A stretch of DNA of 64,000 nt from Streptacidiphilus sp. PB12-B1b. GTDB lineage: Bacteria; Actinomycetota; Actinomycetes; Streptomycetales; Streptomycetaceae. Positions 7,090-58,401 of this stretch are shown piece after piece. Under the pieces are notes generated by a model. That model did no database searches and was not told the origin of the DNA. It saw only the letters and a program-made list of their open reading frames with translations. How positions within the stretch are numbered: position 1 is the stretch's first letter; each line of letters starts with the position of its first letter. Both the position numbers and the translations under genes were made by a program. The stretch lies in assembly GCF_014084125.1 (NCBI RefSeq), contig NZ_CP048405.1, positions 2,542,001 to 2,606,000 on the forward strand, given 5' to 3'.

Positions 7090-7154
7090 ATGTCCGGACA
7101 CGGAGGTATCGGGCGATCTTCGAAAACCCTTCGAACGCGGGGGAGCGGCGCTGC

Positions 7155-7160
7155 TAGGGT
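7155..7160 (+). promoter_or_regulatory. -10 box TAGGGT of a leaderless promoter
   Basis: TAGGGT is followed by exactly 7 nt and then the GTG start at 7168, with no ribosome-binding site. This is the classic layout of leaderless transcription in actinomycetes, and it fixes the start codon of the next gene. Confidence 0.65.
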
Positions 7161-7167
7161 CCGTCCC

Positions 7168-7899
7168 GTGGCGAAACTGAACCAGATCATCGCGGTCGAG
7201 AAGGGCGTCAAGGCCAAGGCGCAGCAGGAGCTGACCAGCGCGCACCAGGACGTCCAGAAGCCTGCGCTGCTCAGCGGCATCTCCCGGACCTACCAGCCGA
7301 AGGACGAGGAGGGCGAGCAGCTGCCGCCCGAGTCCACCCGGGTGCAGCTCAAGGCCGAGGACGTACTGCGCGACACGGCGAAGGCGCTCACCCGGCTGTT
7401 CGACGTGACCGCCACCAAGGACTGGGCCAACTGCGTCGCCCGCGCCGACGTGACCGTCGAGGGGCGGGTGCTGCTGCGCGACGTGCCGGTGTCCTACCTG
7501 CTCTTCCTGGAGAAGCAGCTGGTCGACCTGTACACCTTCGTCCGCAAGCTGCCGGTGCTCGACGGCGCCGAGTCGTGGACGCAGGACCCCTCCACGGACT
7601 GGTGGAAGACCGAGACGGTCCGCACCATCCGCACCAGGAAGGTGCCCCGCAACCACGTCAAGGCCGAGGCCACGGACAAGCACCCGGCCCAGGTCGAGGT
7701 CTACTACGAGGACGTCCCGGTCGGCTACTGGACGACCGTGAAGTTCTCCGGAGCGCTCCCCGCCCGCCGCGTGAACGAGCTCGCCGAGCGGGTCGAGAAG
7801 CTCCAACAGGCCGTCAAATACGCACGCGAGGAGGCCAACGGAGCCGAGGTCCAGGACGAACGCGTCGGTGACGCCGTCTTCGGCTACCTCTTCGGATAG
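7168..7899 (+). CDS. Conserved actinobacterial protein, DUF7873-like, function unknown
   Basis: 243 residues beginning MAKLNQIIAVEKGVKAKAQ (GTG start, leaderless). It is soluble, without signal or membrane segments, mixed alpha/beta with a charged N-terminal helix. The most conserved-looking blocks are GISRTYQPKDEEGEQLPPE, DVTATKDWANC, PVSYLLFLEKQLVDL, FVRKLPVLD, VRTIRTRKVPRNHVKAEAT and PAQVEVYYEDVPVGYWTT, with a C-terminal coiled coil (RVNELAERVEKLQQAVKYAREEAN). I recognise the family from streptomycete genomes but know no function. Two tRNA-shaped RNAs start only about 50 nt after its stop, with no terminator clearly between, so protein and RNAs may be expressed together. A role in binding or handling these RNAs is speculation. 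Confidence 0.85.
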   Translation: MAKLNQIIAVEKGVKAKAQQELTSAHQDVQKPALLSGISRTYQPKDEEGEQLPPESTRVQLKAEDVLRDTAKALTRLFDVTATKDWANCVARADVTVEGRVLLRDVPVSYLLFLEKQLVDLYTFVRKLPVLDGAESWTQDPSTDWWKTETVRTIRTRKVPRNHVKAEATDKHPAQVEVYYEDVPVGYWTTVKFSGALPARRVNELAERVEKLQQAVKYAREEANGAEVQDERVGDAVFGYLFG

Positions 7900-7910
7900 T
7901 GTCATAGGAT

Positions 7911-7947
7911 CCCGTCGCCCTTGTGCGACGGGTGCGCGAGGAGCGCA
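7911..7947 (+). other. Two adjacent hairpins between the DUF7873-like gene and the tRNA-like RNAs
   Basis: Hairpin 1: CCCGTCGC (7911-7918) pairs perfectly with GCGACGGG (7925-7932) around a 6-nt loop. Hairpin 2: TGCGC (7933-7937) pairs with GCGCA (7943-7947) around GAGGA. They could be a leaky terminator, an RNA-processing signal, or the 5' part of the structured RNA that follows. TAGGAT at 7905-7910 could serve as a -10 box for a separate RNA promoter. Confidence 0.5.
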
Positions 7948-7948
7948 A

Positions 7949-8082
7949 GCTGAAACTGAGGCTTGTCGTGACGAACGCGGGACAGTGGAGGTTCGACTCC
8001 TCCCCCGGGCACTCCGCGCCCGGGTAGCCCAAGCAGGCAGAGGCACCCGCGATCAATCTCAGACTCTTGCTCCAGCTTCAGC
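7949..8082 (+). ncRNA. tRNA-shaped RNA in circularly permuted order, copy A (YrlA/Y-RNA-like candidate)
   Basis: The 3' half of a tRNA precedes its 5' half. In order: anticodon-side strand GCGGG (7977-7981); 5-nt variable loop ACAGT; T arm GGAGG-TTCGACT-CCTCC (7987-8003) with canonical TTC and A58; acceptor strand CCCGGGC (8004-8010); a 7-nt loop ACTCCGC; matching acceptor strand GCCCGGG (8018-8024, 7/7 pairs); T8 A9; D arm GCC/GGC (8027-8044) with GG in the loop; A26; and anticodon-side strand CCCGC (8046-8050) pairing 5/5 with GCGGG. No CCA is encoded and the acceptor end is closed by a loop. The flanks can pair further (7949-7957 with 8074-8082, 8 of 9; or 7956-7960 with 8058-8062). This is the plan of YrlA Y RNAs, whose outer stem binds Ro60. 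A permuted tRNA gene is the alternative. No standard anticodon loop can be read. Confidence 0.75.
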
Positions 8083-8098
8083 ATTCGCCGCCGATCGC

Positions 8099-8220
8099 CG
8101 GATCGATCGGGCGCGGGCCCGGTCGTCGGATGCTGGTTCAAATCCAGCCCGTTGCGCTTTCAACTCACCTTCATGCAACGGTAGTTCAATGGCAGAACAC
8201 GGCGTCGTCAAACTGATCCG
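8099..8220 (+). ncRNA. tRNA-shaped RNA in circularly permuted order, copy B (YrlA/Y-RNA-like candidate)
   Basis: It has the same permuted plan as copy A but unrelated stem sequences. T arm GCTGG-TTCAAAT-CCAGC (8132-8148); acceptor strand CCGTTGC (8149-8155); a 19-nt closing loop (8156-8174); acceptor strand GCAACGG (8175-8181, 7/7 pairs); T8 A9; D arm GTTC/GAAC (8184-8198, 4/4 pairs) with GG in the loop; A26. Anticodon-side strands CGGCG (8200-8204) and CGTCG (8124-8128) pair with one G-U. An outer helix CGGATC (8099-8104) / GATCCG (8215-8220) closes the molecule. Because the stems differ in sequence from copy A yet preserve pairing and all canonical tRNA contact bases, the structure looks selected. 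No CCA end is encoded. Confidence 0.75.
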
Positions 8221-8232
8221 CACCCTTTAAAC

Positions 8233-8295
8233 GTGCCGGCGTGCCCAGTATGGGCGGCACCTCTGGGCTCGGGAACTGGCTACGTTCCCGGGCCC
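8233..8295. terminator. Double hairpin terminator after the tRNA-like RNAs
   Basis: Hairpin 1: outer GTGCC/GGCAC (8233-8237/8256-8260) and inner GCCCA/TGGGC (8243-8247/8251-8255). Hairpin 2: a 12-bp stem, 8265-8276 with 8284-8295, one G-U pair, 7-nt loop, followed by a T/C-rich stretch. It probably stops transcripts from both the RNA locus and the convergent MFS gene. Confidence 0.7.
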
Positions 8296-8336
8296 GCTCC
8301 TTTGTCCCGCTCCTCTGTCCGTCCCGGGCTTTGACC

Positions 8337-9671
8337 TCAGGCCGTCGCGTCGGCCACGCCCACCGGCTCCGGCTCGGCCACCGGCTCCGCGCGGCGGGCC
8401 CGCAGCCGGCGCACGTCCGGGACGGAGACCATCGCCGCCGTCCCGGCCACGATCACCCCGGCCGCGCCGAACAGCGTCGCCCGGCTGCCCAGCGCCTGCG
8501 TCAGCGGACCGGTCGCCACCTGTGCCACCGGAATGGCGACGAACGACCCCAGCATGTCGTACGAGTAGACCCGCGCCAGCTTCGCCTGCGGGATCTCCTG
8601 CTGCAGCGAGGTCTCCCAGGCCACGCCGAACTGCTCGGCGCACAGACCGCCCACGAAACCCGCCAGCGCCAGCGCGTACACCGGCACCTGGAAGCCCAGC
8701 CCCAACGGCGTCAACGCCGACCCCGCCATGCAGGCCACCCCGACCAGCAGCAGCCGCCGCGGCCGGATGCGCAGCGCGAGCAGCCCGCCGACGACCATGC
8801 CCGCCGTCTGCGAGGCCAGCACGAAACCCCAACCGGCACTGCCGAAAGTGCGCACGGCAACGCTCGGCCCCAGGATCTGCACCGCCCCGGCATAGGCGGC
8901 GTTGATGAAACCGAAGGCCCCCACGATCATCCAGACCCAGGTACGGGAGGCGAACTCGGTCCAGCCGTCCCGGAGTTCGCTGACCAGCCCGGGCCGCTTC
9001 ACCACTGCGGCGGCAGGCCCGTCCGCACCGGCCGCACCGGCCGCCGGGATCCGCACCCGCAGGAAGAACAGCGCCGAGACGGCGAAACTGGTGGCGTCCA
9101 CCGCCAGACCCCACCCCGGGCCCACCGCCGCGACCAGGATGCCGCCCAGCGAAGCGCCCAGGATCTGCGAGGAGTTGGCCGCCATCCGGTTCAGCGCATT
9201 GGCGGACTGCCGGAGCTCGGCAGGCACGGTCTGCGGTACCAGCGCCGAGGAGGCGGGCAGCGCGAGCGCGGCGAACACCCCGTTCGCCGCGGAGAGCGCC
9301 ATCAGCAGCGGCATCGTCGCGTGGTGGGTGAGCACCAGCGTGGCCACCGCGGCCTGCGTGGCCGCACTCATCAGGCCTGAGCCGACCAGCACCAGGTGGC
9401 GCGGCAACCGGTCCGCCAGCACCCCGCCGAAGAGCAGGAACAGCACGTTGAACAGCGAACGCGAACCGACGACCAGTCCCAGATCGCTGACCGAGCGGGT
9501 GAGGCCGAGCACCGCGAAGGCCAGCGCCATCGGGGCGACCCCGTTGCCGATCAGGCTGATGCCGCGCCCCGCCGCCAGCGCCCGGAACGCCGGGTGCCGC
9601 AGCGGCGCCAGCGCGGACCGCCCAGCCGATTCGGAGGGGGAGGACGGCGGCGGCGACGGCTGTGGGGACAT
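8337..9671 (-). CDS. MFS transporter, probable drug or metabolite exporter
   Basis: 444 residues with about twelve hydrophobic helices in two halves. It belongs to the major facilitator superfamily group that includes enterobactin exporter-like and macrolide exporter-like proteins. The first helix region reads RALAAGRGISLIGNGVAPMALAFAVL. The loop between helices 2 and 3 has LFGGVLADRLPRH, the expected GxxxDRxxR-type signature. The middle cytoplasmic loop carries KRPGLVSELRDGW. The ATG at 9671 is chosen because upstream residues are not conserved in style; no good ribosome site is visible. Two copies of a 14-bp repeat lie upstream and could be a regulatory site. The substrate is unknown. Confidence 0.85.
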   Translation of the reverse strand: MSPQPSPPPSSPSESAGRSALAPLRHPAFRALAAGRGISLIGNGVAPMALAFAVLGLTRSVSDLGLVVGSRSLFNVLFLLFGGVLADRLPRHLVLVGSGLMSAATQAAVATLVLTHHATMPLLMALSAANGVFAALALPASSALVPQTVPAELRQSANALNRMAANSSQILGASLGGILVAAVGPGWGLAVDATSFAVSALFFLRVRIPAAGAAGADGPAAAVVKRPGLVSELRDGWTEFASRTWVWMIVGAFGFINAAYAGAVQILGPSVAVRTFGSAGWGFVLASQTAGMVVGGLLALRIRPRRLLLVGVACMAGSALTPLGLGFQVPVYALALAGFVGGLCAEQFGVAWETSLQQEIPQAKLARVYSYDMLGSFVAIPVAQVATGPLTQALGSRATLFGAAGVIVAGTAAMVSVPDVRRLRARRAEPVAEPEPVGVADATA

Positions 9672-27914: not shown

Positions 27915-28145
27915 ACCGATGAGTGCGCGCGGGAGAGTCCGCACGTCGAGGCGGCGCCGAAGGAGCAAATCCTCCCCGGAATCTCTCAGGCACCCGTACC
28001 GCGCGCGCTGGGTCACTCTGGAAAGCAGGATGGGAACGGGCGACCGGGACTGTCCTCACCGACGGTGAAAACCGGTGGAGCCGGACGGTCCGCACCCGCG
28101 GGCGGGCCCGGCGCCGCCGGTGAAGCTCTCAGGTACTCGATGACA
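27915..28145 (+). promoter_or_regulatory. Tandem glycine riboswitch
   Basis: Two glycine (gcvT-type) aptamers in series. Aptamer I: GGGAGAGTCC (27931-27940), GCCGAAGGAGCAAAT (27956-27970) and ATCTCTCAGGCA (27981-27992). Aptamer II: CTCTGGAAAGCAGGATGGG (about 28016-28034), GACGGTGAAAACCGG, and a second GAAGCTCTCAGGTA (28122-28135). The gcvP start codon follows at 28211. Glycine binding normally turns on the cleavage system; the helix after the second aptamer could control ribosome access. Confidence 0.93.
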
Positions 28146-28210
28146 GAGGGGGAGGTCGTCCCGGCGCATCCGCATGCGCCACTCGGGTCCGACCAGGAGG
28201 CCACCCCGCC

Positions 28211-54712: not shown

Positions 54713-54840
54713 TCCCCGCCCCGATCCGTTCCCGTCCAACCTGCAGTCACTCCAGCGGGGCTCATGGCCCAGCGACTAGGCTGGCCGGGCGCGCCTGACT
54801 CGCGCGCAGTCGACAGCCGTCGCACCCAGGGAGCAGCAGC

Positions 54841-58401
<3,561 letters not shown>

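Follow-up and report, generated by a model that had tools for sequence, protein, structure and literature searches.

What kind of RNA carries the parts of a tRNA twice, each time with the 3' half ahead of the 5' half, directly behind a protein gene? The question is raised by a locus on a Streptomycetaceae chromosome, which was analysed as a window of 64 kb (G000:C1:2542001-2606000; positions below are those of the window unless a genome or locus is named). A gene of the Pfam family DUF7873 is followed on the plus strand by the RNA, and the pair lies between minus-strand neighbours, an MFS gene on one side and a cation-efflux-like gene (read from its translation) on the other. A sequence-only reading had seen here two permuted tRNA-shaped RNAs beside an uncharacterised protein and had favoured bacterial Y RNAs of the YrlA class, with permuted tRNA genes as the alternative. 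The protein proved to belong to DUF7873, the constant companion of the RNA.

Architecture of the RNA

The conserved RNA is about 390 nt long and extends on the plus strand from 7911 to 8295, its first nucleotide lying 11 nt 3' of the DUF7873 stop codon. The extent of 7949..8220 proposed earlier was too small, leaving out a 5' hairpin and a terminal hairpin. A strict pattern, composed of a T arm with a TTCRA loop, an acceptor pairing of at least 6 of 7, U8-R9 and a D arm with GG, found exactly two matches over both strands of the window, both in this RNA and at the place where the two modules had been seen.

The RNA opens with the 5' hairpin (7911..7932), in which 83.3% of cells are paired and 4 of the 6 pairs counted show compensatory changes among 65 Streptomyces-type RNAs, and an almost invariant GCGC hairpin (7934..7946; 99.6% paired, zero compensatory changes). 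Domain 1 (7950..8081) is an outer helix (5' strand 7950-7963, 3' strand 8061-8081) holding module 1. This helix is 96.6% paired with compensatory changes in 0 of its 11 pairs, so that it is conservation that argues for its pairing. Module 1 (7987..8044) runs from the T arm (7987-8003) through the acceptor 3' strand (8004-8010), the loop ACTCCGC and the acceptor 5' strand (8018-8024, 7/7 paired) to the TA of T8A9 and the D arm (8027-8044), and its anticodon-side stem is formed by GCGGG (7977-7981) and CCCGC (8046-8050). Its D arm is of the tRNA-Leu type, Leu being the nearest isotype in 85 of the 86 modules compared, a figure partly built in by sorting on the 3-bp D stem.

Domain 2 (8089..8243) consists of long-range helices holding module 2 (8132..8198), in which the T arm (8132-8148), the acceptor strands (8149-8155 and 8175-8181, 7/7 paired), T8A9 and the D arm (8184-8198) follow in the same order. 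The acceptor loop has 19 nt and starts with GCT, and in the anticodon-side stem CGTCG (8124-8128) pairs with CGGCG (8200-8204), one pair being G-U. The pairing described earlier for the acceptor and anticodon-side strands of both modules was confirmed from the sequence. Mimicry of tRNA-Gly by module 2 was considered and rejected, as the nearest D arms were mixed (Val 39, Arg 36, Ser 14, Thr 12, others) with Gly outside the eight commonest listed; the N73 table of this isotype comparison was set aside because the tRNA ends given by the program often retain part of the CCA. The RNA closes with a terminal hairpin (8265..8295) with a loop of the UGGAUAC / GGCUAC type, 99.9% paired with 6 of 11 pairs compensatory among the 65 Streptomyces-type RNAs and -25.2 kcal/mol in the window, a possible terminator.

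A covariance model of the module 2 domain, R1, matched the RNA of the window at full length (G000:C1:2550048-2550248, E 1.5e-45). At curated cut-offs no Rfam family covered the RNA, either here or at the 10 DUF7873 loci scanned. Elsewhere in the window Rfam placed tandem glycine riboswitch aptamers (27920-28156), and a Streptomyces-metH RNA motif (RF03076) lies at 54731-54843. The locus, earlier described as two independent RNAs, is more aptly regarded as a single RNA that combines two modules with conserved linkers, the transcript ends being predicted.

Conservation and covariation

Single-sequence folding gave z values of -0.99 and -1.46 for the two halves and -3.40 for the whole region. Because each half folds unremarkably alone, the case for the RNA is made by comparison and not by energy. 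Across relatives the pairing is preserved with compensatory changes, so that one of the findings which the sequence-only reading had named as refuting it, loss of the pairing in homologous loci, did not occur. An alignment of the module 2 domain comprised 60 sequences (26 Streptomyces-type and 34 viral, 59 distinct) and 28 pairs, of which 96.4% of cells were paired and 27 showed compensatory changes on both sides, while sliding the partners lowered the pairing to 42-46%. In 500 shuffles the domain's values for paired percentage, double-change cells, types of pair and covariation score were never reached, and its count of varying pairs was reached twice. The members of A2 and R1 were picked by the T arm, acceptor and D arm pattern, so the pairing percentages of those three helices are partly built in. 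The selection did not build in the two helices outside module 2, whose pairing reaches 94.1 and 91.6% across the 59 distinct sequences with compensatory changes in 13 of 13 pairs, nor the absence of the RNA from 85 genomes described below.

Among the 65 Streptomyces-type RNAs covariation was also found in the terminal hairpin, in helix 2c and in the anticodon-side stems, which played no part in module selection. At least five Watson-Crick pairs were formed in these stems by 19 of 44 and 29 of 57 viral modules, against averages of 1.9 and 2.3 (maxima 9 and 7 in 500) for swapped partners. For the Streptomyces stems the first set gave 37 of 50 (swapped mean 29.5, maximum 36) and the second 54 of 78 (swapped mean 47.9, maximum 59, not exceeded), the swap test being blunt here because the sequences are too alike. 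An alternative helix GAGCG-CGCUC, joining the 5' part to a linker, was dropped with 54.6% paired and no compensation in the columns tried.

Linkage of the RNA to DUF7873

DUF7873 was present in 115 of the 200 Streptomycetaceae genomes searched, and the R1 model found the full-length RNA in 114 of these 115 and in none of the 85 others. The Fisher value of 9e-57 is not to be taken literally, as the genomes are related and some of them trained the model; the scan scored 12 candidates per genome under strict filters, and some R1 members came from the same 200 genomes. In the exception, G017, a DUF7873 fragment of 64 profile positions overlaps a partial RNA match. Gene and RNA were adjacent and on the same strand in all nine pairs compared by position, and in an alignment of 30 Streptomycetaceae loci, the window included, the modules lay 3' of the gene on the same strand in 30 of 30, with conserved linkers. 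Module 1 was lost or swapped for a short hairpin in 6 of these 30 loci (by eye), indicating that two modules are not always needed; by pattern, 67 of 113 distinct Streptomyces-type loci had two modules, 45 had one and 1 had none.

In a sample of the phylum, DUF7873 was found in 7 of 396 genomes, all 7 from Streptomycetaceae, and Nonomuraea gerenzanensis also has the DUF7873-RNA pair, with two modules. One genome has a second, diverged DUF7873 copy (L286, G129:C2:60196-60924), and behind it too lies a module, whose acceptor loop spans 49 nt. Deinobacterium chartae was the sole one of 14 control genomes matching DUF7873 and also the sole one matching TROVE. ARAGORN called tRNAs, one Ser and one of unknown type, over part of module 1 at L181:3288-3377 and L284:9210-9298, probably falsely.

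The pair appears to travel alone. Four neighbour genes of the window were sought in the flanks of 80 Streptomyces loci, the best 80 of at least 569, and none recurs. By DNA matches of 300 bp these flanks fell into 42 and 41 groups, an overestimate since some loci end at contig ends. In G062, a sister genome without a DUF7873 match, homology reaches window position 7097 and resumes at 8365, and sirtuin-like and alpha/beta-hydrolase-like genes (read from translations) occupy L313:2448-4364 in place of 7098-8364. Because the flanks vary and this spot holds other genes in G062, the cassette resembles a solitary insertion whose site varies, and the intergenic spot may be an insertion hotspot.

Copies in phages

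DUF7873 was found in 73 of 50,697 phage records, distributed by host name over Vibrio (29), Gordonia (12), Rhizobium (12), Klebsiella (7), Serratia (6), Arthrobacter (3), Pseudanabaena (2), Rhodococcus (1) and Microcoleus (1). Ten of these records were examined, and nine showed at least one module behind DUF7873. Among the examined records the pair occurs in phages whose names point to Arthrobacter, Gordonia, Rhodococcus, Pseudanabaena, Klebsiella, Rhizobium and Vibrio, seven genera of hosts. The Microcoleus phage has no permuted module, and a normal-order tRNA-like fold was seen there by eye. In 8 of the 10 records tRNA genes are annotated near DUF7873 within the fetched stretch, the Pam2 and Microcoleus phages having none there. 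In the Gordonia phage Phendrix, an Rfam tmRNA match of 89 bits lies in the tRNA array near DUF7873 (L076:4141-4669). GOLLD RNA, a large structured RNA that accompanies tRNA clusters of phages and mycobacteria (PMC9569102, PMC12286853), is similar in setting; the DUF7873 RNA differs in having a protein companion, and no GOLLD match was obtained at 10 DUF7873 loci at Rfam cut-offs.

IMG/VR yielded 256 confirmed DUF7873 stretches, of which the best 80 were used and 8 duplicates dropped, leaving 72 distinct loci. At least one pattern module was present in 64 of the 72 and none in 8. On the strand of DUF7873 there were 94 pattern matches in 55.7 kb downstream of the gene and 0 in 57.6 kb upstream, with 1 on the opposite strand downstream, which upholds the earlier view that the arrangement is not chance. 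In an earlier viral set, L057 breaks the rule with two modules downstream on the opposite strand, and L060 and L061 have no module by pattern. The near-obligate linkage of protein and RNA, within one bacterial family, their usual common strand and order, the conserved structure and the occurrence in both phages and Streptomyces are matters of observation.

Processing signals in the acceptor loops

If the acceptor spacer were merely a loop, a tRNA 3' end would not be expected in it. Distinct loops of at least 6 nt were compared with 1000 shuffles, related non-identical loops being treated as independent. CCA stood at positions 74-76 in 31 of 76 distinct viral loops (2.3 expected, shuffle maximum 9 in 1000), C74-Y75 in 59 (14.8 expected, maximum 24), and U(-1), just 5' of the acceptor base, in 47 (21.2 expected, maximum 34). 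In Streptomyces-type loops CCA was rarer, with 19 of 102 (3.2 expected, maximum 9), C74-Y75 reached 76 of 102 (26.3 expected, maximum 39), and U(-1) was not enriched (32 of 102, 26.6 expected, maximum 43). N73-CC and U(-1) help recognition by bacterial RNase P. In phages the acceptor may plausibly be opened, because all three signals are enriched in viral loops; the loops suggest RNase P-type opening, N73-CCA and U(-1) often being kept, and in Streptomyces such opening is perhaps a relic. A module of this kind would also be explained by descent from tandem tRNA genes in a phage array.

The same CCA rule applied to TROVE-linked modules gave 1 of 10 loops (CCCAGG), against 31 of 76 in the viral DUF7873 RNA, with C74-Y75 in 3 of 10 and several loops being C...G closed hairpins; the sample is small and the contrast lends weak support, and its ten modules (L256, L257, two in L260, L261, L267, L031, L033, two in L284) were collected with a laxer acceptor rule. 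Among the TROVE loci L031-L038, 5 of 8 had no pattern match.

The DUF7873 gene and protein

The gene (7168..7899, plus strand) encodes 243 aa from a GTG at 7168 and matches PF25283 with E 2.4e-120, at 401 bits against a curated cut-off of 27, over residues 28-268 of a 269-aa ORF. This ORF, which begins at 7090, is probably over-extended, judging by homologues that align from the MAKLNQII start at GTG 7168. Upstream, a TTCGAA-type repeat (7119-7135) and a -10-like TAGGGT (7155-7160) just before the GTG may be the promoter of a leaderless DUF7873 transcript (7119..7160, plus strand). A CGAA-N6-TTCG repeat precedes DUF7873 in 16 of 81 upstream regions (0.02 expected) and TTCGAA in 40 of 81 (0.96 expected), both expectations being from mononucleotide shuffling; the inverted repeat of the window itself has N5 spacing, not N6. 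A LexA-type box, GAAC-N4-GTTC, was found in 0 of 81 regions and dropped.

The family is large, 7,114 of 8,000 candidates scored being matches. Searches of NCBIfam, PHROGs and PADLOC for the family matched none, a literature search by name returned no paper mentioning DUF7873, and sequence homologues in the PDB were not significant (best E 0.24). The AlphaFold2 model (pLDDT 92.3, pTM 0.75) displays long helices and a long two-stranded hairpin. A PDB fold search with it gave no chain at E <= 0.001, a second look was uninformative, and the VIA-align listing is without a TROVE or SmpB chain, an absence that proves nothing. Because no solved fold matches significantly, it is the linkage that suggests RNA binding by DUF7873. 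Residues invariant or nearly so in 37 aligned proteins, including N88, W137, K158, H172-P173-A174-Q175 and A223-N224, are candidate RNA contacts.

Alternative explanations

The close start of the RNA behind the stop codon (11 nt in the window), on the same strand and in the company of the gene, would suit a cis-acting 3' element of the DUF7873 mRNA that governs stability or autoregulation, the tRNA mimicry giving RNase P a place to cut. The RNA has, however, two complete tRNA-like folds and about 390 nt of conserved structure, more than an end-maturation signal would require, and in L057 the modules lie on the opposite strand, which makes this explanation unlikely.

A tmRNA-like device, in which the split RNA, its two acceptors opened and charged, enters ribosomes with DUF7873 in the role of SmpB, is distinctly unlikely. 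The layout resembles that of permuted two-piece tmRNA, where the 3' tRNA half precedes the 5' half around a removable acceptor spacer, and N73-CCA and U(-1) in viral copies, together with A73, which module 1 has in 30 of the 46 viral and 64 of the 69 Streptomyces-type cases, would agree with it. Yet G3-U70 is not conserved (2 of 46 and 1 of 60 for viral modules 1 and 2; 0 of 69 and 1 of 110 for the Streptomyces-type ones), and the module 2 loops of Streptomyces carry NCU instead of CCA in 105 of 110. The DUF7873 RNA further differs from tmRNA in its two tRNA-like domains with full D arms, and DUF7873 is not SmpB by sequence family.

The resemblance to YrlA is closer in shape. YrlA bacterial Y RNAs are reportedly the subject of a study by Chen et al. 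in 2014, and a Ro60/Rsr (TROVE) gene is expected in a genome with YrlA, usually adjacent. Under this explanation the RNA would be a YrlA that binds Ro60/Rsr and tethers or gates a nuclease, with DUF7873 as an accessory. Both RNAs have a permuted tRNA-like module joined through the anticodon-side stem to a further helix, so that in module order and attachment the YrlA reading stands, and YrlA (RF02553) was the sole Rfam family with E below 1 at a lax threshold. The scores were 26.8 bits (E 0.0012) for module 1 and 26.7 bits (E 0.0013) for module 2, far below the gathering score of 69, the other four rows having E >= 5.4. This shortfall weighs little, since for these bacteria the threshold is a strict one: none of the 61 genomes searched attained 69 bits, TROVE-linked modules included. 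Membership among the Ro60-bound Y RNAs, by contrast, is not supported. The earlier remark that no Ro60/TROVE gene lies in the window extends to the whole genome, in which neither PF05731 nor the TROVE-VWA protein of a relative gave a match, while PF05731 matched in 28 of the 61 genomes searched.

TROVE was present in 13 of 21 genomes with DUF7873 and in 4 of 16 without it (p 0.045; 37 family genomes covered by both searches), which favours a Y RNA, but TROVE went unmatched in 8 of the 21 genomes with DUF7873, and the presence of the RNA tracks DUF7873. Genome G037 has a TROVE gene, with two YrlA-like modules close by, about 2.4 kb upstream of DUF7873, which may likewise be counted for a Y RNA. 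Its locus brings YrlA-like modules, the TROVE gene and the DUF7873 RNA (ACCA and TCCA loops) within about 7 kb (L284:2664, 4979, 9271, 9417) and offers a natural side-by-side comparison of the two RNAs. TROVE proteins are carried by some jumbo phages (PMC7824862) and YrlA is predicted in mycobacteria and one prophage (PMC9569102, PMC8190616). The DUF7873 RNA differs from YrlA in having two modules in one RNA, in its 27 bits against 69 and in its companion, which is DUF7873 and not Ro60. Since neither a TROVE gene in the genome nor a score at the family threshold was found, the RNA is set apart from YrlA; a classic Y RNA is improbable, and the YrlA reading was right on shape, but unproved and probably wrong on the partner.

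True circularly permuted tRNA genes, ligated into decoding tRNAs, share the order of the halves, as in those of algae and archaea (PMC3978253, PMC3218864), and the CCA that many viral copies have within the acceptor spacer is a tRNA-maturation signal on the acceptor side, such signals being strong in viral loci and partial in Streptomyces. Against this, the anticodon-side stems extend into helices and linkers that are conserved, inspection of the alignment by eye shows neither a 7-nt anticodon loop nor a constant anticodon, and ARAGORN found no tRNA gene anywhere in the 64-kb window, so that a decoding tRNA is very improbable here.

An artefact from the junction of tandem ordinary tRNA genes imitating a permuted module has a negligible chance: it was tested and not borne out, since Asn-Asn and Ala-Ala pairs reach 36-43 bits with RF02553 and about 51-52 bits with R1 whereas full-length R1 scores are 96-192 bits, no tRNA gene is present here, and the outer strands pair within each module. 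For annotation, tandem identical tRNA genes are a trap of RF02553 at those 36-43 bits (L264, L265, L275, L262, L263, L317). The two other RF02553 matches in the genome of the window are such junctions, and 5 of the 11 YrlA-match loci first examined, one of them in this genome, are Asn-Asn or Ala-Ala junctions, the other 6 including TROVE-linked YrlA.

A proposed ribonucleoprotein of phage origin

By the tests made, the RNA is not a classic YrlA, nor is it a decoding tRNA. The occurrence of the protein-RNA pair in many Streptomyces and large phages points to an RNA-protein machine not described so far, distinct from ordinary tRNAs and known Y RNAs. The preferred explanation, which is given about an even chance of being right, is that DUF7873 and its downstream RNA form a two-gene cassette, derived from phages and domesticated in Streptomyces, whose product is a ribonucleoprotein acting on tRNA-directed enzymes. 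DUF7873 would be made from a leaderless transcript and would bind the conserved linkers and outer helices of the adjacent RNA, and tRNA-handling enzymes would be offered the two tRNA-shaped modules, both of them anchored through their anticodon-side stems. At least in phages, RNase P and 3' processing might cut the acceptor loops and expose CCA-type ends. The particle could then occupy or recruit tRNA-directed enzymes of processing, modification or decay, or tRNA-cutting defence nucleases, and so protect or manage the pool of tRNAs encoded by many of these large phages. For YrlA, PMC7790460 carries the proposal that the tRNA-like domain is a decoy, a competitive inhibitor of anticodon nuclease. 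The Streptomyces copy would be domesticated, acting in host RNA metabolism or against phages.

A bolder form of this proposal is put forward only tentatively and is thought somewhat more likely to fail than to hold. It takes the pair as a Ro60-independent class of ribonucleoproteins with two permuted mimics, CCA ends opened by RNase P and a working RNA made up of several associated pieces. Large phages would use it beside their tRNA arrays to control or shield tRNA-directed enzymes, and Streptomyces would have taken it up repeatedly as a solitary cassette.

At curated cut-offs Rfam has no family for the RNA in the window or the 10 loci scanned, and the literature search by name brought up no paper on DUF7873, yet the pair is present in over half of the Streptomycetaceae sampled (115/200). 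If the preferred explanation is true, tRNA mimicry of the Y RNA kind would gain a second, unrelated protein companion, a handle would be provided on a protein family of more than 7,000 matches, and the role of tRNA mimics beside phage tRNA arrays would become testable.
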